The position numbers and the translations under genes were made by a program. Under the pieces are notes generated by a model that was not told where the DNA came from, ran no database searches, and worked only from the letters and a program-made list of their open reading frames with translations. DNA of 64,000 bases from Acorus gramineus (lineage: Eukaryota; Streptophyta; Magnoliopsida; Acorales; Acoraceae). Within the stretch, counting starts at the first letter, position 1. Every line of letters begins with the position of its first letter. The DNA lies in NCBI GenBank assembly GCA_030737835.1, contig JAUJYN010000012.1:2029431-2093430 (forward strand), in the 5' to 3' direction. This document shows, piece after piece, positions 3,060-49,019 of the stretch.

Positions 3060-4920
3060 GGTACACTCTTATGCTCCTCTTGTATATTGTTATGCTTCTT
3101 CTGTACACTGTTATGCTACCCTTGTACACTATTATGCTTCTAATATGATATAGAAACTAGCTTAACATTGGTCATCTTGTATCCAGAACTCTAACTTGTT
3201 AGTTTTGCTTGTACTCTTTGTAGTTATAAAGATATCCACATGACATAAGAACTCCAAAAAAAACTTCAAAATTTGCTATTATGCTCATCTTGTAAAATGT
3301 TATGCTTCTCTTGTACACTATTATGCTCCATATTAATGTAATTATGGTACTCACTCCATTTGCTAGTAGGTATCCAATCAGAAAATCATATATTCTGATG
3401 AGGATGATCATTTTACCTCCACCAAGAAAACCCGAGCATCATCATTAGAGATCCTCCAAATCCCAAGTCTTCCACCAAGACTTTGCCCCCCCCCCCCCCC
3501 CCCCCCCCCCCAAACCCTTTTGAAGTCATGAACCAAGACCCATGAAAAGTCCAAACCCAAGTCATCCACCAAGACCCAGGCCAAGTCCAAACTCAAGCCA
3601 TCTATCACGAGGAACAAAAAGGAACAAGGTAAACCCTTTCAGCACTGTTAAATTGACTAAGTACACCCTTAACTTTCTTGTGTACATTGTTAAAATTTCT
3701 CGTACACTGTTAATTAATTTTTGTACATTTTTATAATAGAGACTGTGAGGCCCTTCCTCCCCAAATCTATGCTAGTATAATACATACGGCGAGTACATCA
3801 AAAAGGGAACGAACATGGAATGGGGGCAACAGGACATACCAAGGTTCTGAGGAGAGTATGCAGCAAAAGTTATTCGAAGAAAGAAAGAGTGATGCTCGGA
3901 TAACGGGTTTTTAAAAAGAGTGAAAGTTATAAACAAAAATGTAAATATTATTCTATGATAATTTTGTAAATCCGTGGTGGTGATTTAAACATCATATGTT
4001 TGAAATGTTGTAAATCAGTGTGCTAATTTAAATAGGAGGTCGAAATGGTGTTTGAAATGTTATATATATCAGGTTGAAATGATGTTTGAAATGCTTGTTC
4101 GCTATTACAAATTAAACATGTTATATTGATTATTCTGTGTACACCATTATAAATGGTTTGTACATTGTTATCTATCTATCAATAGGGTACCTTATTCACA
4201 TTGATTGTTCTGTATATACTATTATGTTTCACATGTACACCATTATGTACAATCTGTACACCGTTATGTTTGGAGGGGAGGAAAACAAAGAAGAGAAGGG
4301 GTTGGGGTTAAAAATGAAAAAAAAAATGGTAGAGTTAACTAATGATGGATGAAATGATCTAAACAAAATGGATGGATCGATGGAGGGAGGGATTTAAAGA
4401 AAAGTAAAAAAAAAATCAAGGGATCTATTGTTATTACAGTTGTATTCTCAAAGACCCTTAATTAATTTTTCAAAAAAAAACATAAAAAATTGTGTGTTAA
4501 GAACATGTACTTTATTTTTTTAAAAATCATGTACTTATTGGACAATGTATTCTATAAAAATATTTAACACGCATGCATTGATCAGTGTGACTACAGTACT
4601 AACAATGTGACATTTTCCTTGACATAATGCATGTGCCAATATTTATCAATCCAGGAAGGTAAGAGGTAAAAAAAAAGAAAAATTTCAAATATTTTATCAA
4701 CCCTTGTTATTTTAGGGCCATGGATTTCTTTTTACATTTGAAAACACACTAAGTTATAGCCGTTATATTTTTGTCCCTTCTATCTCTTTTTAGCTACTTA
4801 AACTGATTTGGAATCCAAATATATACATTTGTATATTGTTATTTACTCTGTCTACATTGGTAACTTGTAGAATGTTATCAATCCTTTGTATATTATTGTG
4901 TGTTTATGTAGACTATTAAA
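3060..4920 (+). repeat. Dispersed short repeat, consensus near TTGTACACTGTTATGCTTC
   Basis: More than a dozen same-strand copies occur in clusters: 3060-3150, 3285-3345, 3660-3735, 4130-4275 and, more degraded, 4830-4920. Each has a TGTACA-like core followed after 2-3 bases by TTATG or a variant. The last cluster lies outside the proposed right end of the Mutator-like element, so either the boundary is wrong or the repeats predate it. Such arrays can be subterminal transposase-binding sites, but that is inference. Confidence 0.5.
3486..3511 (+). repeat. Homopolymer of 26 C
   Basis: An uninterrupted run of C lies inside the Mutator-like element, between the word CTTTG and AAACCC. G/C runs this long are rare in AT-rich plant DNA and are prone to sequencing and assembly error. 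Confidence 0.9.
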
Positions 4921-5309
4921 TCTCTTACATATAATTTGTACATATGGATGATATATGGACAGAATTGGAAAATTATAACTACTAATAGAGTTTTTTGTAC
5001 TTCAGTCATTTTACTATGAACTTATTTTTGAATGACAATCCCTACCTTCCTCCAAAAAAAATTTAGAGTTCTTTTATATGCCTGAGGGGTCTGGAAAAAA
5101 AAATGAGTAAAAAATAAAAACCAGTGTGATAAATATGATCCAGAAGTTCACAGTAATTCAATTACAGTACATTACGCGGAAGAAGAAATTTTGCCTGCAA
5201 TATCCACAAATGAATCGGAATAGAAAATTTTAAACAATTTTCCCATATGTTCCAACAGAATGAGCCAAATATATATATATATATATATATATATTGTGTA
5301 CAATCCTTT
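4472..5309. other. AT-rich intergenic DNA with an (AT)n microsatellite
   Basis: No gene is seen. It contains the degraded TGTACA-type cluster near 4830-4920 and an (AT)n tract of about 28 bases at 5267-5295. Confidence 0.5.
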
Positions 5310-5527
5310 TTTTACCCTAACTCTAATACACATATGTTTTATTTTTTATTAATTATAGTATACTTCATCTAATGAGATAATACTTTGATATAAAAAAAAT
5401 GAATTATATTATCCATTGAAGCGCATAAATCCATTTATATAAATTATGTGAAATTTCTAACATATTTTCTTTTATAACGTGAGTATATGACGCTAAGGAG
5501 ATATATAATATTAAGATTAAAACTAAA
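5310..5527. repeat. Diverged direct repeat flanking the first Harbinger-like element (left copy)
   Basis: This stretch resembles 9100-9330 in the same orientation. Shared landmarks in order are 'tacacatatgtttta', 'ataaaaaaaatgaat', 'catttata', 'gagtatatg' and 'taaaacta'. The two copies bracket the element at 5532-9067 and seem to be an older duplication, too long and too diverged to be a target-site duplication. Confidence 0.45.
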
Positions 5528-6419
5528 AGGAGGGGCTGTTTGGCAGCAGCGGAAAGCGGATTTTAAGTGCTGATGAATAAGTGCAGAAAGAGGTTATGAT
5601 GATAATCTTTAAGAGTTCAGTAATAAAAGCGTTTGGTTCGACGGATACTTTTATGCAGTTATTTAAATAAGTGTGTTTGGTTAACCAAGTGACATATGTG
5701 CTTATTGAAAGGGTATTTTACTCCATTTTATAAGTGCAGAATGTTATTTTGATGTTTGATTGAAATGATTGTTTAAAACAAATTTTTTTTTTTGAGATAT
5801 TAAAGATAATTCTTTTTTAACATGTTAAAAATACATCAACCATTGCTATCCTGGTTAGAACCAAAATAAACTTGCGCCTCGTTACCCACATGTTGAAAAT
5901 CAATATGTTTCTTGTTTAATCCGTTGAAAACTCTGAATGCTATATATTTTCACATATCTCATAGGATTGCAAAAACTCATCAATTGGACTGCAAACACAT
6001 CCAAATGCCATTGTTTAAAAAAAATACCCAAATAAAAAAAACCGGGTTGGGCCCCTTTTGTTAGAGTTTGACAGTTATATAAATTCTACAAAACTACACT
6101 CATAAAAATGTTTCATATTAACATAAAAGTTTGTTGGGACAAATAATAGGCAATTAAATTAATTGGTTTGACATGTTGATTAATAGATAGCACTCTCTTC
6201 GGATGTCAACGCTCCCACATATAAGTTTGTTCTTGAATGTGTTACAAAAGTGACTGCTCCATAGAGATATTTATAATGTTATAGACATGCGTGGGCTAAT
6301 AGAACTTCTACATTTTACTTGATAGCTAGGATTAAAAGCAAAAAGAAGATAGCAAACACTAACAACATTATACAAAAGCATGCACAACATCTAAAAATCA
6401 TTAAACCCGTTGGTCGTTG

Positions 6420-6527
6420 TCATGCATTGTCGTCCTTCTCCACCTTCCTAAAGATTTGCGGTTGGTTAGCTTGAAACTCTCCCATCCTGGGCACTGTATC
6501 CGCCCACATGAAAGAATTATTGTAGTC
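6420..6527 (-). pseudogene. Exon-like captured fragment of unknown origin
   Basis: On the minus strand an acceptor-like ATGCAG is followed at 6527 by 35 codons and a TGA stop. The peptide begins DYNNSFMWADTVPRMGEFQ. It keeps an open frame right after the acceptor and reads like the last exon of a plant gene. I do not recognise it; a distant resemblance to NOI/RIN4-type peptides is too weak to use. It lies in the sense orientation relative to the promoter-like end at 8667-8834. Confidence 0.3.
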
Positions 6528-6818
6528 CTGCATCCAACCAAAATATACAAATCAATATGGAAACATAAAAAAAAAAGAAGTGAATATGTATCAATGAAGA
6601 CAAGTGCACTTATATGAACACGTACCAATTCTTGAATTGCCTCTGATCCATATTTTAACAACATAATACACATGAATATATATACCAATCATGCTCAAAT
6701 TATATCTAATGCTTGTTGTCTGTTTAGTATTGATGTTTGTTACCTCAAGTGACTGAAGGAAGAAATCATTTTTACTTGCTAACCTCAAATGCCTTGTTAT
6801 TATATATTAAGGGTTCCG

Positions 6819-7160
6819 ATGGCCAACAAAACAAACTTCACTGAATGGCTAAAACCATCAACTAATACCACTTGTTCTTCCTCTCCTTCTCCACCCCCAC
6901 CATCACTAATTCTCAGTAGGTTCAAAGAATTCAAGACCATCAAAGAAGAGGACACGTGTGTCGGCGTGTCACTGCAGATTGGTTTGCCTAACTCAGGAGA
7001 GAATTCTGATCATGTTGAGTGGGAATCCATGGATTGTGTTAAGAAGGATGATCAGAAGTACATGTTTTGGATACCTACACCAGCTCAGATCCTTATTGGG
7101 CCAATTCAGTTCTCTTGTTCTGTGTGTAGGAAAACCTTCAGTAGGTACAACAACATGCAG
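6819..7160 (+). pseudogene. Exon 1 of a WIP/TT1-type C2H2 zinc-finger gene, captured fragment
   Basis: The frame from ATG 6819 gives 114 codons ending exactly at a splice donor (ATGCAG, then GTATGA). The middle has the acidic plus LQIGLP motif of WIP proteins (residues about 58-63). The end has the hallmark [20 protein letters not shown], then [14 protein letters not shown]. In this plant transcription-factor family (TRANSPARENT TESTA 1, WIP2/NTT) the first intron falls right after NNMQ or NNLQ, and exon 2 starts with MHMWGHG. No such exon is visible between 7161 and the element end at 9067, so the zinc fingers are incomplete. The reading frame has no stops, so capture may be recent or the fragment may be under selection. 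It lies antisense to the element's promoter-like end. Confidence 0.7.
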
Positions 7161-7756
7161 GTATGATTTATGTCTTTGCTTAATGAAAAGATTATATTAT
7201 ATTGCATGTGTATGAGTACTTGCTGTGTCTCATGCAAGGTAAGTATCAGATGCTAGATGTTTAACCCACAGTGATCAATAACATGGATGGGTGTTAATAA
7301 TTTTGAGTCTTGTTGTTGCAACATTTGGTGATTAGCATTCCATTTAGAAAATATAATTAAGAATTTTAAAATATTTGACTTGTATTCTGTCCATGCTTAA
7401 AAAGAGGTGACCTATAATTGTTTTGTTAGGGAATGTATCCTTGATGATTTTTTATTAAATCTACCATTTAAACTACCCAAAAGCATGAACATCACCTCAA
7501 CTTCTGAAACCCCCAAAAAATAAAAACCCACCTTCCAAAAACCCCCCACAGAATCAAAACAAACATCAAACAACCAAAGATTAAAAAGAAAAATCAAAGC
7601 TTCACCTGATCTTCTACAAAAACAATGCTAAAAAACTCAAACTTCAAAAATAAAAACTTCATCAGCCCATTTAAAAAAAGGGGACCTGAGGAAGATCAAA
7701 GTCACCCCAGATGGTCATAGAGAATCCTATCGGAGATTGAAAAAACAAACCCACCT

Positions 7757-7757
<1 letters not shown>

Positions 7758-7787
<30 letters not shown>
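7758..7787 (+). repeat. (CT)n microsatellite
   Basis: About 15 uninterrupted CT units inside the Harbinger-like element. On the minus strand it encodes the low-complexity arginine-glutamate repeat seen in a spurious frame. Confidence 0.85.
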
Positions 7788-7791
<4 letters not shown>

Positions 7792-8666
7792 CTATCTTTT
7801 TGAAACCTCTTCAGATGGAGAGGTGAAAGAGCAAGCACAAAAAGAAAGACCCCCACCAAAAATGCAGTAAAAATGTGTTGACAAAGGTATGTAAAGAGAG
7901 AGAAAAGAGAGATGGCTTACACGGTACTCTCTCTCTCTCTGTGAAAAATCACTCCTTTTATTTCTTCTCTTTTTTGGGTGTTAGCATTGCATGCATGAAA
8001 ATCAGAGAATGAAAGAGAGTTTTAAAGTGGAACAGGGGATGGATCTGTATATGAAAACCATTGAATATCTTTTAGTAATTGATTGATAAACCTTGTTGAA
8101 ATAAAGCTTTACACATGCATAAACAGCAGAAGATTGACGTGATTTTAATTCTATAAAAAATACCAAGGGTGGTAAAGGAGGTGAATCAAAAAATACCATT
8201 GAAAAAAAAAAAACACAGAGTATAAAAAAAACACAGAGTATCCGATGCAACTAGCTGAAATATACCATTGACAAAAAAAAAAAAAAACACAGAGTAACTA
8301 GATATGACTATATTGCACCTCCCAAATATCCCAATCAACTGCTTTGATCCATACCCAAAAGGAACCCCATCAAACAGAAAGAACACAATCAACTTTAGGT
8401 ATTAAGGAATAGAAATAACTCACTGAGGAGAGGTTTAAGAGACCTTGACTGCTAAAGGGTGGTGGTGGCGATGGTCGAGCTGGCTTCAGATCTACCACGA
8501 TGAGAGGCAAACAAGGAGTTAGATAAACCCATATGGCGGTGAAGGAGGTGAAAACAAAAACCAGATCTACGAAAATAAATGACGATGATGAAGTCTGTGT
8601 GATCCGCACAGGTTGAAATCGGAGGCGGAAAAAGCAGAAAAAAAAGGGCAACACGTTCGATCTTAC

Positions 8667-8834
8667 CCGGAGATGCGAAGATGAGGGGCCGGCGAAGAAG
8701 CGAGACGGTGAATCGGTGATGGAGGAGGTCGTTCGGGGAGATCGGCGCAGCGGCTAGGGTTTCTTATTTGGGGCGAACATGTTTTTTGATCGAGAGAGAG
8801 AGAGAGAGAGTTAAAAAAATGTTTATATATGGAT
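8667..8834 (-). promoter_or_regulatory. Inward-facing promoter and 5'UTR-like exon of the element
   Basis: Reading the minus strand inward from the right end, there is a TATA-like CCATATATAAAC (8821-8832), then a pyrimidine patch made of CT repeats (8793-8811). A GC-rich stretch with AAACCCTAGCCGC, typical of plant 5' leaders, follows and ends at the donor CCG/GGTAAGA at about 8667/8666. The order of parts matches a plant core promoter plus a first non-coding exon. Transcription is inferred, not shown. Confidence 0.45.
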
Positions 8835-9099
8835 GGTAAATACATCGATTAATCGAGGGCAGGATTGACTTTTTGGAAGAGTAATATCGCGGAAAGAGTA
8901 AAAAAAGTGTCCTCCCGATCACTTAAAAAACGAGCATCTTTTTTACTTTTTGAGGATTTTAAAGTACTGAATATAAGAGTCCACCAAACACCATGTGTTT
9001 TTATAACTGCTTATTTTTAAGTAATCAGCTTAATAAGTGCTGAATGGAGGATCAACCAAACACCCCCTAATATTACGTATAATCACTTTTTCAGTCTCA

Positions 9100-34615: not shown

Positions 34616-35276
34616 TATATAATGTTTATATCGGATGACAATTGTTTTTAAGCACAACATGGAGGAATGTGTTTCGTTACATTAAATATTTAAGTTTTAG
34701 TTTTCTATAATTTGAACATATATTATTCATTAAAAGTATATATATATATATATATTATAATTTTTATAAAGATATCTATCTTGATAAATTAAATGTATAT
34801 CTTAAAAAAAATTATTACATGGAGATTACATGCGAGTCTACACACATGGTTTCATCTAAAAGTTGTTCAAAACATATTTTACAGGTTTTCACTTTAACCC
34901 TTATAAATGATTGTTTCAAAGGAACCAAAAAGCAAAAACATGTTTTTGATGAAGTCAGGGCCCTGTCTTTGACAAGGGGCATTGAGAATATGGATTTGGT
35001 GGTGGAACTATACAAATATTGGTGTGTGGGGGTGGGGTTGGTGGTGTAGGTGATGCAATGTGAAGTACATATAAAACATGTAGATCTTTATGGGCATGTC
35101 ATGAAAAGTAGTGCATTATGACTTGATTTAATTGAAAGATAAAACTTAGGAGTGTGATCAGTTATTGATTGAGTTTTTGTCTTTTTATGTGACATAAGTA
35201 GACTATAAATGCATTTTCCACGTATGTATTTCATTAAATAAAAAACCTAGCAATAACGGATTCAAATTTACATACA
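34616..35276. other. Intergenic DNA
   Basis: No gene supported. An (AT)n tract lies at 34736-34756. Frames on both strands at 34815-35049 overlap each other and have no motif. Confidence 0.4.
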
Positions 35277-35414
35277 TTTATATGCATGTATATACATAGT
35301 TGCATGTGTGTGTGTATAGTAATCGAAAGAGTATTAAAATAAGGTATTTATATGCATGTATATACATAGTTGCATGTGTGTGTGTATAGTAATCGAAAGA
35401 GTATTAAAATAAGG
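35277..35414 (+). repeat. 70-bp tandem duplication
   Basis: Two nearly identical copies containing 'tatatgcatgtatatacata' and 'gtaatcgaaagagtattaaa'. The second copy ends at the left border of the giant foldback element, so its last bases may form part of that element's target duplication. Confidence 0.85.
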
Positions 35415-36708
35415 GTTAAAGACATCTAAGTCCCTATAAACATGGGAAAACCCATATAATTCCCTATTAAAATTGGAACAGACGTACGAGTCCCTAAAAA
35501 CTCACAAAAACCCAATTATCATCTCTGAATTAAATTTTCATCCAAACTTAACAGAATATTCCAGAATATTCCATCACATTTAATTGTGTAGACATTGAAG
35601 TCCCTATAAACAGTAATAAAGACAAATTAAAAGATAAAATTGCCCTTGAAAGACTTTTATATTAAATTGTGTACGCATTGTAATCCTATAAACAATCATA
35701 AAGACAAATTAGTAGTCCTCGTAAAAGATAAAATTGCATCTGAAAGATTTTTACATTTAATTGGATAAACATTAATGTCTTTATAAATAATCGTAAAGAC
35801 AAATTGGTCCCTATAAAAGATAAAAATGCTCCTGAAGGATTTTTACATGTAATTATATAGACATTGCAGTCCTTATAAATAATCATAAAGACAAATAATA
35901 TAATTTTTTTTTTTTTCATCTTCTATCCTATCGCTCACACTCCACCTAAACAAATAATGAATAATGCTCTTTTCTTTAAAGTGTTTGCTTGCTTTGAAAT
36001 ACCTAGATATATGATTTTTCACAAAATTTGTTTATTTACATTCCTAGCAAAGAGAATTTTAATAAACCCATGCCACTTTTTTTACTTCCCTACAAACAAA
36101 AAGGTAAAAAGAATGCATTTTACTGATCAAAATATTTTTTTACATCCAAATTGGGATCTTCAGGTGGAGTGTGAGCAATATGATAGAAGATGAGAAAATA
36201 TAAAAAAAATAATAATATTTGTCTTTGTGATTGTTTATAAAGACTGCCAATGTCCCAATTAAATGTAAAAATCTTTTAGGGGTATTTTTGTCTTTTATAA
36301 GAACCAATTTGTCTTTACGATTGTTTATAAGGATTGTAATGTTTATTCAATTAAATATAAAAGTCTTTCATGGGCAATTTTATCTTTTGCAGGGACTAAT
36401 TTGTCTTTATGATTATTTACAGGGACTGCAATGTGTACACAATTTAATGTAAAAATCTTTGAGGGGTAATTTTATCTTTTTGAGGGATTAATTTATCTTT
36501 ATGACTGTTTATAAGGACTTCAATATCTACACAATTATATGTGATGGAATATTTTAGGAATATTCCTTAAGTTTGGAGGGAAATTTAACTCAGAGATGAT
36601 AATTGAGTTTTTCTGAGTTTTCAGGCACTCGCACGTCTGTCACAATTTTAGTAGGGACTTATATGGGTTTTCCTATGTATATAGGAACTTAGATGTTTTT
36701 AACCTATA
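35413..36708. mobile_element. Giant foldback element, about 1.3 kb, with subrepeats in both arms
   Basis: Left arm about 35413-35948, loop about 35950-36165, right arm about 36166-36708. Outer ends GGGTTAAAGACATCTAAGTCC and, reversed, GGTTAAAAACATCTAAGTTCC match. Each arm holds about four diverged tandem units of 80-95 bp (left copies near 35587, 35667, 35763, 35853) built from 'aaagacaaatt', 'aaagataaaattgc' and 'gaaagattttta'. The innermost arm pieces 'catcttctatcctatcgctc' and its inverse at about 36175-36192 pair too. TAAAATAA occurs on both flanks (35403-35413, 36709-36716), consistent with a Mutator-like 8-9 bp duplication. No coding capacity. Confidence 0.75.
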
Positions 36709-44790: not shown

Positions 44791-45410
44791 CAGGATTGTG
44801 TTAGGTATCTCCATACCGCTTTTGTGACAGATTTACGTAGCGTTTGAAAACATGTTTTGTTGATTCTTTTGTAGCAGGAATTAGCTTAACCCAAATGCAT
44901 TTCTAAGCGCCTCAAATGGTCGCAGCTTTCTAAGAAAACCCAAAAAAAAAATAAAAAAAAAGAAGCATTTAATTATTAACCTGTAAAAAAGGAATTTTTT
45001 TAAGAAATCTAACAAATGTATACTTCCATTTCCTGGAATCTACACTAGATGCCAGTTGCAAAAAAATTAGTATATTTGTATCTTCAACTGACAAAGGATC
45101 CAAGAAAATTTACCTGTCTGGCTAATGCTTCAAATCAGAGATCCAATACATACTTTTCATGTGAAGTGATCCTGCCATATATCTCTTCCACTTGAATATA
45201 AGCATACTTGAGAACTTGAGATTGATCCCGCATGGATTTTGAAATTCAACAGCAATACCAGTCACATTCAACTATCTAAAATAAAATCTTAATTCAGTTC
45301 AAATCCAATACCAAAAGAGACGAAGAATGGCCATATCAGGCAGTGGGAATTTTCTCCATTTTTTCTATAAATGCTAACCAAGTATGAATGCATATTTGAA
45401 ATAACATTTA
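44791..45410. other. Intergenic DNA
   Basis: Possibly intron remnants of the decayed gene. Nothing bounded. Confidence 0.35.
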
Positions 45411-46928
45411 GGTGCTGTTTGGCAGCAGCGGAATGCGGATTTTAAGTGCTGATTAATAAGTGCAGAAAGAGGTTCTGATGATAATCTTTAAGAGTTTTGA
45501 AAAAAAAGTGTTTGGTTCAACGAAAAATATTAAGCAGTTATTTAGATAAGTGTGTTTGGTTGACCACTTAACATATGTGCTTATTGGAAGGGTATTTTGG
45601 ACTATTTTATAAGTGCTGAATGTTATTTTGATGTTTGGTTGAAATGAAGAAAAAATGCTTTTTTTTTTTTAGATATTAAAGATTATTCTTTTAATACATT
45701 GTGGGACTTCCATGTTTCACATGAATTGGATCACAAAATAACAAAAATTCAAGGACAACTTTGACCAAGTTCCTGGTTGACTTGGTCAGTCTCTTGGACT
45801 AGCTTCAACTTGAGAGGGCCTATCTACCAAAGCATATGGTGTTTAATACATTGTACCCACCCATCATGTGCAAAAACCCAAAACCAAAGACAATCAAAAC
45901 GAAAAAAAAACCCAACATAACCATCTCACAAATGGCCAAGAAAACAATAATTCACTCAATCAAACCCAATATAACCATTGGTTCTGCTATGTTGGTTCAA
46001 ACAGATAAATACTAGTAAACAAAGAGAAATTTCAATAACGTTTACATAGAAATTTCAATCCCAGCATGCCTCACCCACCTTACCTTGACAAGGGTGATGG
46101 GGTCCCTACAATGACATAAAAAGGGAACCCACCAAAAAAAAATTGGGTTCCCATATGGAGATTCCACTCCAAGTCTGCTTACACACACAAACTCTTACAC
46201 CACCATAGAAAACCAACCAAACAAAAGCCAACCTGATAGATCTAATGCTGCCATTGTTCTCTTCTTCTCTTTTTCATCATCACTCAGACAGTTGCACACT
46301 GAGAACATATCTTATAGAATTTTAATCAGAATAGCTTCATCATCCTTCGCATCATCCATGGACTAGATCAAATACGCCAAACCATCTATCAAGTAAGAGA
46401 AATATCAAACACTTCAATAATCCATTCTAGAACTAAATGTAATATGCTGTGAGGGTGTGCAAATCATAGTAAATGAAAAACATTTTTTGTTGATGTGGAC
46501 ATCTGTCAATGCTAGGAGGAAAATATGGAGTGAATGAAACATGTTTCTATACACACTAGTGGAATGCAATGAAATAAAACAGATACAACCTAGACGGACT
46601 AAGCAAACACTTCAGTTAAGCAGTGCTACAAACAAACTTACACAAAGGGGTTACTTTTTTTTAAAAAAAAAATAAAGGTATGGACAAGATGCCATGTTAC
46701 AGCAAAGACAAGTCAGGGTGCCCAAAACATAGATGAAATTTTTTTTTAAATACAGCTACACATTAGCAAAGTTTAGAAGGAATATTAGAATGAATAAAAC
46801 ACAAATTCATATGCATTATTGAATCATAGAATATAAGTATAAATAAGAGCAAATCTACACTCATTATGCAAATATGGTACATTCTACTCTTGCAATGCTT
46901 TGAATGGAAAGGGATTATTCTTATACCT

Positions 46929-47452
46929 CTAATCGAGCAGAGTGTCATCCAATCTAATGACTTCATCACCACCATTCCTCACACGGAATTCAACATTCCT
47001 CAGATCACGAAGGTGCTGTAATATCTCTTGAAGAAGGTTCATCCCCTTGTCCCCCTTCTTCAATGAGCTAATGCAATGCTTGAGAAACTCCCTGTCCGCT
47101 TCAAGAGCCTGGAGCCTCTCATAGACATAATCGACCTCCTCCACAATTATCAGCCTATTCTGTTCCGTCTCATACTTTAAATTCTGAGAACCAAAAGCAG
47201 TGGCTGCCTTTCCTTCCTCTTCACCATGCAGCACTTTGTCTCCATTTTCAGAAGCAATGGCATCGAATAGAGGAAGGAGCCTCTTGCCTTTTAGACCCGC
47301 TCTTCTGTTCTGATCATAGTGTATACCATTTATTTCCATAGAACCATTCACAATATTTTCTTTATTTCCATCAGCCTCTTCTGAGAAATGCTCAGATGAT
47401 GATGTGCATTGGACATGGACAAGCAAGGGGTATAATCTGGCAAGATTAGCCC
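46929..47452 (-). pseudogene. Exon of a GTD-binding (DUF593) myosin-binding protein, captured fragment
   Basis: On the minus strand an acceptor ATTGTCAG is followed by about 172 open codons to TAG (46929-46931). The C-terminal part, VDYVYERLQALEADREFLKH, then SSLKKGDKGMNLLQEILQHL and RDLRNVEFRVRN, is the conserved tail of plant GTD-binding proteins. These membrane-anchored adaptors bind class XI myosin tails on endomembrane vesicles. The GTD-binding coiled coil itself and the N-terminal membrane segment are absent from the window. A donor (AG/GTATAAG) follows two bases after the stop, as if a 3'UTR intron had also been captured. The frame is free of stops. No ATG lies at the frame start; a transcript would need an upstream or internal start. 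Confidence 0.75.
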
Positions 47453-48183
47453 CTGACAATTCATATCATTGCTAAAAGACCTCAATGACCTTCATAATTT
47501 TCAAAGAATTGAAAATTTATTTGTATATATAGATGCAAATAAAATGAATGAGAAAAATATAGCATATAACAGTGGATTTAAAACTTAACAGCCTTTAGTA
47601 AAGTGAATTTATGCGGTTATCTAATTTTGGAAGCCATGAATATACAATGCCATCATTAGCTAGCATTAGGTGAGGATTTAAAGAATAGAAAAAGAGGTTA
47701 ACCAGTCCAGAAATACTTTCTTGTTTCATTTTTTCAGCCATACAGACTTTTTGGTTTGTGCTATCACATTTTGATTGGAGTCTGCCTTTTTATCAAGTGC
47801 TTCTCCTCACATGAACACACCTTCAACATTTACAAGAAATCAAGAATACTAGCCGACTCTATATATATAGAAATAGATAGACAAGAACAAAAGATATGAA
47901 AACACATTAAACATATAAAGGTATAACAAAAATTTCTTCTTACAGTAGATGTTTCAGAAATAAGTTTGTTCCCAAACTTTAGCCTCAAACAAACAACATT
48001 AAAAACTGATCATAAATAAACAAATTCACATATATGTAATGGAATAATAATCGATCAGAAACCAAATTAAATTGATTTTACTTCTCCCCACATAGAGACA
48101 CACCTTCATCTTGAATTTACTTCTCCCCACATATGTAATGGAATAAGAACATAAGCATATGAACTGGTATTACCTTCAGGTCG

Positions 48184-48496
48184 GAGCTTGGAGATCGAAA
48201 TAGAGGTCGGAGGTCGATTCGCGAGGAGGCGAGGGGAGATGGTCAATGGGGCTAGATTCTTGCTCTTCGGGTGGTTTCGTGATGTGAACGGGCTTGATGG
48301 ACGGGAGGAGGCGCCTTCACCAGGTTGTTCCGCGATGGTGGAGGGGCTGTCCGCAACAGTGGAGGAGGGGCCGAGAGGCGACGGAGGAGGGGCCGGGAGG
48401 CGACGGAGGAGGTTTCTCTCGGACGAGTCGACTAGATGGGAATGAGAAATGTGTGAGGAGAGAGAGAGAACAGGTCGAAATGGGGCTTATATACCG
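48184..48496 (-). promoter_or_regulatory. Inward-facing promoter and 5'UTR-like exon of the second element
   Basis: Reading the minus strand: TATA-like CCGGTATATAAGCCCC (48485-48500), a pyrimidine patch (48460-48472), then a GC-rich exon-like stretch with the short direct repeat GTCGCCTC(C/T)CGGCCCCTCC. It ends at a donor CTGAAG/GTAATA near 48176. The order matches the right end of the first element, although the sequences differ. It points in the sense direction into the captured myosin-adaptor exon about 0.7 kb away. Confidence 0.5.
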
Positions 48497-49019
48497 GTCG
48501 TAAATAAATCAAAGTAGCAGGGGTATCCAGGTCTTTTCACGTGGGGGACTAATAGGCGTAACACGAGAGCGGAAAAATAAAGTAACGTCTCTGGGGCTGA
48601 AAAATTCCGCATATTTGTGTGAAAAGCGGATACAATTGAGCACTTATTCGGGTCTCTACCAAACAGACAATAAACACAAAACTACTGAAAATTTCCGGTT
48701 TCAGTCCAATAAGACTGAATTTAAGTGGAACCAAACACAGCCTTAGATTGTAGGTAAGAATCTAAGATGGGAAAAGAACCAACGGAACAACAGATGAAGA
48801 GAAAATGAAAATGTAGAGAAGTGCTTGGCAGTCCCATTAATCGCTAACAGTGTATGAATTATGTTTTCACAAAATACATTATTACATTTCATAATTTCAA
48901 CCACACAGGCAATATTGAACTGAAATAGGATGAAATCAAAATGCTAGTAAATCATGAAATATGAAATACGCACGTATTCAACTAGAACTAAATTACTACC
49001 AAACATAAAACATGATGGG

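Follow-up and report, generated by a model that had tools for sequence, protein, structure and literature searches.

How cut-and-paste transposons acquire host genes is an open question. For the Pack-TYPE elements of rice, maize and Arabidopsis, tandem insertion followed by re-mobilisation is the favoured model (PMC8903248); in grapevine, elements with host DNA in a long 5′ region are on record (PMC2528002). The multicopy forms of the animal Pack-TIRs require later transposition, and their authors leave plants open (PMC8277862), while a 2026 review allows for another, undiscovered route by which unlinked DNA is captured in plants (PMC13317346). We describe an element of 3,332 bp at positions 45411-48742 of a 64,000-nucleotide stretch of Acorus gramineus DNA (hereafter the window, C32:2029431-2093430), which carries part of a MyoB/DUF593-type gene and is probably a non-autonomous PIF/Harbinger transposon of the kind called Pack-PIF. 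The genome searched (398.6 Mb, 137 contigs) offers cargo-free relatives, the cargo element and an intact unlinked donor, so that the junctions can be read base by base. Genes of PPR, F-box and MyoB type in the window show it to be plant DNA.

The window element, its family and its cargo

The element has TTA on both sides (45408-45410 and 48743-48745) and its termini read GGTGCTGTTTGG on the left and CCAAACACAGCC on the right. Joining the two flanks around one TTA and searching the genome gave three candidates, all scored: the two flanks themselves and an uninterrupted match at C32:2139218-2139714, identical at 489/498 positions and holding a single TTA. This is a paralogous empty site, about 61 kb downstream of the element. 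Because it holds a single TTA, the element is shown, as far as sequence goes, to be a discrete insertion at TTA; it entered one copy of a locally duplicated pair and lies 278 bp past the stop of a PPR gene frame. The boundaries given in a preliminary description of this DNA are right to the base, and the clear TTA duplications it reported are borne out by the empty site. The neighbourhood of the element is duplicated at the downstream locus (L055) at 98% identity. The features on which this section draws are the following.

45408-45410, no strand: left target-site duplication TTA (flank reading; empty site with one TTA)
45411-45422, plus strand: left terminal inverted repeat GGTGCTGTTTGG (terminus reading)
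45411-45699, plus strand: left-end module common to the family, also in element 1 at 5531-5816; 86-98% identical in the copies fetched
46058-47400, minus strand: captured host DNA, 98% (1317/1344) colinear with the MyoB/DUF593-type gene at C9:13635451 (L033) by DNA alignment
46929-47465, minus strand: 178-codon stop-to-stop frame, the parent's C-terminus from about residue 23, with the same stop codon and the DUF593 domain absent (open reading frame and donor comparison)
48411-48742, minus strand: right-end module, 97-98% identical to the elements L041/L042 with leucine-rich repeat (LRR) cargo (alignment)
48731-48742, minus strand: right terminal inverted repeat GGCTGTGTTTGG (terminus reading)
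48743-48745, no strand: right target-site duplication TTA (flank reading; empty site with one TTA)

A second member of the family, element 1, lies in the same window. The left end common to the two, put at about 270 bp in the preliminary description, measures 283 bp (289 alignment columns) at 86% identity, with an ungapped core of 238 bp at 89%. Used as a genome query, the left 290 bp returned 824 candidates, of which 40 were scored; all 40 matched at E < 1e-100 with 88-100% identity, which excludes a chance likeness of the left ends. This search, set beforehand as the check, revealed a large family that includes transposase-bearing relatives. We read 22 copies, namely 20 relatives over 9 kb and the two window elements. 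A perfect 3-bp duplication accompanies 14 of them (12 TTA/TAA, 2 ATA) in a scan that sought the left 3 bp behind a terminal-repeat-like motif, without a shuffled control. The ends of L018 and L028, for which no position had been predicted beforehand, coincide or almost coincide with those of L020 and L010. No right end was found for L016, L017 and L022, which were counted as misses; the right end of L013 is interrupted and L026 lacks a left end. Weighing against the assignment, the duplication is one base off in L009 and L012 and has no match in element 1.

Two copies of about 6.75 kb, L023 and L024, have their frames on the strand that reads from right end to left end. L024, whose left end is 91% identical to that of the window element, encodes a DDE_Tnp_4 transposase (E 8e-21) and a Myb/SANT protein (Myb_DNA-bind_3, E 3e-20). 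A transposase on the opposite strand, with its near edge 1.24-1.31 kb inside, accompanies at least 8 of the 40 scored left ends, a count based on 43 places among the matches listed in a transposase search (150 of 490 candidates scored). The window has no match among those listed, and the two open reading frames (ORFs) of at least 100 residues in the window element match no Pfam family at E 0.01.

Terminal repeats of the form G(N)5GTT mark the PIF/Harbinger superfamily (PMC2213677), and the window element has them (left GGTGCTGTT, right GGCTGTGTT), along with a 3-bp TTA/TAA duplication, a DDE_Tnp_4 transposase in a relative with the same ends and a Myb/SANT second ORF. The termini, the duplication and the transposase and Myb frames of the relatives thus point to PIF/Harbinger, and the host-gene cargo to a Pack-PIF: a host fragment stands between terminal repeats in an element that has no transposase of its own and has moved with its cargo. 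We hold this assignment with good confidence. Still more probably, the element would be mobilised by the Myb-plus-transposase relatives with the same left ends. A Pack-MULE was considered and rejected; those elements have long terminal repeats and 9-bp duplications, and the window element has 12-bp imperfect repeats and a 3-bp duplication.

The cargo comprises 1,343 bp, a C-terminal part-exon and the 3′ untranslated region (UTR) of a MyoB-type gene, and aligns to the donor with one gap, stop codon and downstream DNA included. The donor is an intact 499-residue open frame on a different contig from the window. Its Zein-binding/DUF593 domain occupies residues 123-213 (E 3e-33); only sequence from about residue 345 onward was captured. 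A DUF593-type domain is needed for myosin binding by MyoB proteins (PMC8514473), and since that domain is absent what was captured does not by itself amount to a myosin adaptor. The "myosin-adaptor exon" of the preliminary description therefore needs correcting; of the DUF593/GTD-binding C-terminus said to be captured, what stands is a C-terminal piece of a DUF593 gene, the domain itself lying N-terminal of the capture. The cargo ORF matches no Pfam family at E 0.01, and among solved structures its only match is at E 0.53. The capture breakpoint falls within the donor's continuous open frame, so that no parental acceptor was captured, contrary to the preliminary description, and any acceptor there is not the parent's. 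As for the 3′ UTR splice donor also claimed, a donor-like AG/GTATAAG stands after the cargo stop codon. An intact gene spanning the element ends, named beforehand as a refuting outcome, was rejected: the piece is a 98% copy of part of the C9 gene, the donor stands at another locus, with the capture breaking off within its open frame.

A genome search with the frame at 46929-47465 gave 12 candidates, all scored, and 8 matches: four cargo copies (the window, C32:11306446, C2:31252400 and C2:32798196), the donor, one paralogue at 47%, and two places (C79 and C2:32048192) that match only residues 2-28 and 2-25, mostly element sequence by the junction. The four cargo copies stand at different places and two are damaged at an end. 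They have 14 differences from the donor in common, with 8 private to the window copy (46 gap columns set aside). These common differences, together with the same right junction in all four copies, fit a single capture followed by transposition. Two cargo copies, L026 (C2:31.25 Mb) and L032 (C2:32.80 Mb), lack the first 70 bp and are preceded on the left by one and the same foreign sequence. L032 is cut short at the right as well, and the two appear to belong to a single larger unit, duplicated or nested.

Other copies carry other host DNA, as the preliminary description had held; the outcome named beforehand against it, one cargo in all copies, is not what we found. Three cargoes occur in the copies examined. 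That of element 1 is a C2H2 zinc-finger piece, which we take to be WIP-like and which has no Pfam match.

5532-9068, plus strand: sister element 1, with no matching target-site duplication (left flank GGA); its left 1.1 kb is 83% identical to the transposase-bearing L024, with a right-end TATA at 239
6807-7463, plus strand: cargo of element 1, the zinc-finger piece, 95% identical to C9:5142558-5143218, the presumed donor from the match list (genome search)

The cargo search for element 1 (40 of 133 candidates scored) placed the WIP-like piece also in copies at C70, C85, C3 and C10. We take C9:5142558-5143218 as the donor because only 6807-7463 matches there; the parts beside the cargo do not, save for 54 bp at 85% nearby. 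One of these copies, L054 (C85), combines the left end of the family, 95% identical to that of element 1 over 682 bp, with the L024 coding part at 85%, followed by the WIP-like piece at 99%. Because L054 joins these three parts, element 1 is best read as the putative result of an internal deletion in a copy that bore Myb, transposase and cargo together. Window positions 6644-6810, just before the WIP-like piece, are 96% identical to C43:4618829-4619611, 239 bp from the Myb region of another copy, a match that suggests a stepwise build-up of element 1.

The third cargo is carried by L041 and L042 (C10:19658395 and C7:16462453), elements of 2.04 kb that are 98.6% identical over 2,051 columns, with 4 mismatches and the rest gaps. 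They match the window element at 97-98% over the right 334 columns and at 77-81% in the left end; the C10 copy has TAA on both sides and the C7 copy no perfect duplication. Their cargo is the N-terminus of an LRR kinase, a 366-residue frame that begins with Met, contains LRRNT_2 and LRR domains and lies in sense behind the right-end TATA box. Over 1,150 bp it is 99% identical to C8:5513383-5514532, its presumed donor; neither of the other cargoes has so close a donor match. Only the cargo, and not the element part of the query, matches there (40 of 159 candidates scored). Counting against the overall reading, only the MyoB donor was read, those of the WIP-like and LRR pieces being taken from match lists. 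The "active gene-capturing family" of the preliminary description holds for recent spread, as the near-identical copies and the empty site show at sequence level, and for several cargoes; it falls short of present-day activity.

A predicted right-end promoter and leader intron

Of 19 right ends, 13 have a TATA box at 225-250 bp from the terminus, with a CT-rich tract behind it; the right 700 bp of the 19 hold only one further match to the motif. TATA motifs also occur at the left ends (10 copies in one bin), where the copies resemble one another closely; we place no reading on these. The window element has the following right-end features.

48486-48493, minus strand: TATA box TATATAAG with a CT-rich tract after it; distance to the right terminus 249 bp (motif scan)
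48361-48412, no strand: 22-bp tandem repeat in the leader, with copies that differ in length here (repeat scan and alignment)
48174-48461, minus strand: predicted leader exon of 288 nt with no ATG, its start assumed 32 nt after the TATA start (sequence reading)
48172-48173, minus strand: predicted 5′ splice site GT in CTGAAG/GTAATACC; compare GAG/GTAATACC in the transposase-bearing L024

We propose that in the Myb-plus-transposase relatives the right-end promoter would drive a leader exon that is non-coding and is joined to the Myb ORF by removal of a long intron. That intron would act as a replaceable bay, so that cargo need not stop transposase production. A right-end promoter, a leader exon and an intron that may serve as cargo bay in these relatives seem to us an even call. 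The fuller scheme, in which breaks in the bay would be filled from unlinked host genes by template switching with its splice sites kept, autonomous cargo carriers would spread and deletion of coding exons would then yield Pack-PIF copies, is put forward tentatively, as less likely than not.

The Myb ATG of L023, L024 and L054 comes after a T-tract and ATGTAG, and ahead of these the three sequences diverge. To follow the acceptor side, L024 from the Myb ORF into the variable part was used as query (114 candidates, 40 scored); after L024 itself and one middle-piece match were set aside, 38 Myb-bearing copies remained. Homology ends at query 367-385, the predicted acceptor and T-tract, in 29 of the 38, and the other nine pass the acceptor, ending at query 420, 511, 511, 513, 538, 608 (three) and 801. 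In these 29 copies the stretch upstream of the Myb ORF matches at 90-95% as far as the acceptor with its T-tract, and there the match breaks off abruptly. On the donor side (89 candidates, 40 scored), 20 of 21 non-self copies that cross the splice donor stop 7-181 bp inside the intron and one continues. In L054, the WIP-like cargo stands directly behind the Myb region. In L023, positions of about 4889-5839, in the variable region of this Myb-bearing copy, form a tandem array with a period of about 397 bp and 89% identity between units.

The strongest alternative is that the region upstream of the Myb ORF is an unconstrained spacer, drifting or collecting deletions, and neither intron nor bay; we consider it a serious contender that nonetheless falls short of probable. 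Only one of the three known cargoes stands behind a Myb region, and nine of the 29 copies pick up the spacer again beyond a gap, over 47-55 bp at query 553-607, as would be expected of deletion. Since these nine resume with intron pieces and three others reach query 608, deletion rather than replacement appears to account for part of the acceptor pattern. Drift alone hardly explains so abrupt a loss, however, because the left non-coding part of L023 and L054 still aligns to that of L024 at 83-85%; the fall at a single point in 29 of 38 copies and the absence of ATG from the predicted 288-nt leader likewise speak against a spacer.

Besides the deletion share, several points count against the intron bay. 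The strict TATA motif is absent from 6 of the 19 right ends, L023 having TATTTAAA near the same place and the other five a GCCC end. The splice sites are read from sequence alone. L054 has a stop in its transposase frame and stops in its Myb frame, and two of the three Myb-bearing copies read (L023 and L054) have stops in one frame or the other, so that a working copy with cargo is hypothetical.

Junctions, capture route and the captured frame

The cargo is bounded by interior family sequence and, on the left, a short filler:

45698-46050, no strand: interior piece, 97% identical to the cargo-free L013 and L036 (alignment)
46051-46057, no strand: 7-bp filler AATTTCA (junction reading)
47402-48371, no strand: interior piece, 98% identical to L013/L036 and 84-88% to the older L045; its left edge is the junction in several arrangements (alignment)

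In the cargo-free L013 (C79) and L036 (C2:32048192), 138 and 150 bp stand in the cargo's place, and the sequence of the more diverged L040 continues across the left breakpoint as theirs does, apart from some deletions. At the left junction of the window element, ACATAGA is followed by the filler AATTTCA and then by the donor's ATCCCA. The filler with its neighbours forms the 12-mer AGAAATTTCAAT, found only at 46025 and 46048 on the plus strand of the window; the filler is copied from 23 bp upstream. Among 20,000 random fillers of the same composition, a copy of at least 12 bp arose in 5 and any full copy within 60 bp in 183. At the right junction the donor's CAGATGAT passes into GATGTGCATTGG, where L013 and L036 have AATGTGCATTGG. 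The right junction is the same in all four cargo copies and the filler is present in three, L009 having 39 bp deleted there. A search for the origin of 47402-48371 (31 of 31 candidates scored) returned family members and short partial matches, with no clear host donor.

The simplest explanation is that a break inside the element was repaired by template switching to an unlinked gene, leaving a back-copied filler, and we somewhat favour this route. Gap-filled Pack-TIRs would show a small internal gap and microhomology or filler at the junctions (PMC8277862). Here a stretch of 138-150 bp is replaced and the left filler is copied, but the right breakpoint is common to other arrangements, so that membership in that class may be argued either way; for that last reason, capture through a single gap is likely and not demonstrated. 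The complications gather at this breakpoint. At the base before TGTGCATTGG (47402), L045 turns to unrelated sequence and L040 leaves L036, so that three or four arrangements meet there, within the near-palindrome CAATG-TG-CATTG. The right breakpoint may thus reflect recurrent breaks or a junction older than the capture, and L013 and L036 may not be the direct ancestor state of the cargo element; the final ~75 bp of L013 are missing, and 4,064 bp of L036 were examined with no left end found. The base before TGTGCATTGG (window 47402, L036 1512, L013, L045 755 and L040) is a possible recurrent break point.

Under the published model for Pack-PIF and Pack-CACTA, family members would have inserted on either side of the gene end, lost their inner ends and jumped as a composite. 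This would likewise give a left part, host DNA and a right part, and the right part does begin at the same base in several arrangements, like a ready-made truncated unit. We nevertheless find it unlikely here. The left and right parts together equal an L036-like interior minus only 138-150 bp, which two independent truncations would reach only by coincidence; a filler taken from 23 bp upstream is a mark of DNA synthesis; and the donor locus (L033, 3.5 kb fetched) matches the element over the cargo only.

The cargo of the window copy lies in sense to the predicted leader, and a chimeric transcript could arise. We nonetheless consider it very improbable that the element has turned the DUF593-gene piece into a working chimeric gene that selection maintains. 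Its frame is open with the parent's stop in all four copies and the cargo is in sense to the right-end TATA, but the myosin-binding domain is absent, there is no in-frame Met ahead of a derived Val-to-Met change, and a scan for acceptors upstream of the cargo gave three candidates with 60-70% pyrimidines, judged weak and none convincing. Five of 155 codons (stop counted) differ from the donor, 2 synonymously and 3 non-synonymously; these changes, too few to judge, give no sign of selection for the protein, a point that also weighs against a coding role. Lastly, the notion that no transposon is involved and that a segmental duplication or assembly artefact put the part-gene here has in its favour that the neighbourhood is locally duplicated, and is as good as dismissed by a duplicate that lacks exactly the element stretch with one TTA kept, and by the presence of termini, duplications and dispersed copies.

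Elsewhere in the window, positions 35276-36704 form a foldback-like structure with inverted arms of 217 nt (35414-35630 and 36488-36704, 86% complementary). The arms enclose 92-bp tandem repeats in opposite orientations, and a perfect 70-bp tandem duplication adjoins.

Comparison with described systems

Pack-PIF elements are already known; the intron bay is the new part. The Pack-PIFs of maize and rice are likewise non-autonomous and multicopy, with host fragments in the interior and mostly TTA/TAA duplications (PMC8903248). The family detailed there holds 163 bp and 58 bp of host DNA, whereas two of the cargoes here measure 1.15-1.34 kb; capture is ascribed there to neighbouring insertions and re-mobilisation, whereas one cargo here replaces a small internal stretch. 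The Pack-TIRs are filled by template switching with short microhomology at small internal gaps (median 4.6% of the element; PMC8277862); they are animal elements and ours is a plant PIF/Harbinger. For template switching with filler in plant gene capture, nothing close was found in the open-access literature searched, and the same literature gave no description of a leader intron as cargo site.

In rice Ping/Pong and mPing, a Myb-like ORF1 with an intron and a transposase act on non-autonomous copies (PMC4055405), and the portion of that paper at hand describes no host cargo, unlike the family here. The intron bay, if true, would account for host genes being carried by a transposase-bearing element that keeps its mobility, and would predict where to look elsewhere, for example in the grapevine family Pifvine-3. 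That family has TTA/TAA duplications, as here; in the accessible text of PMC2528002 its long 5′ region is not described as an intron, nor is a cargo-free relative or junction filler described.

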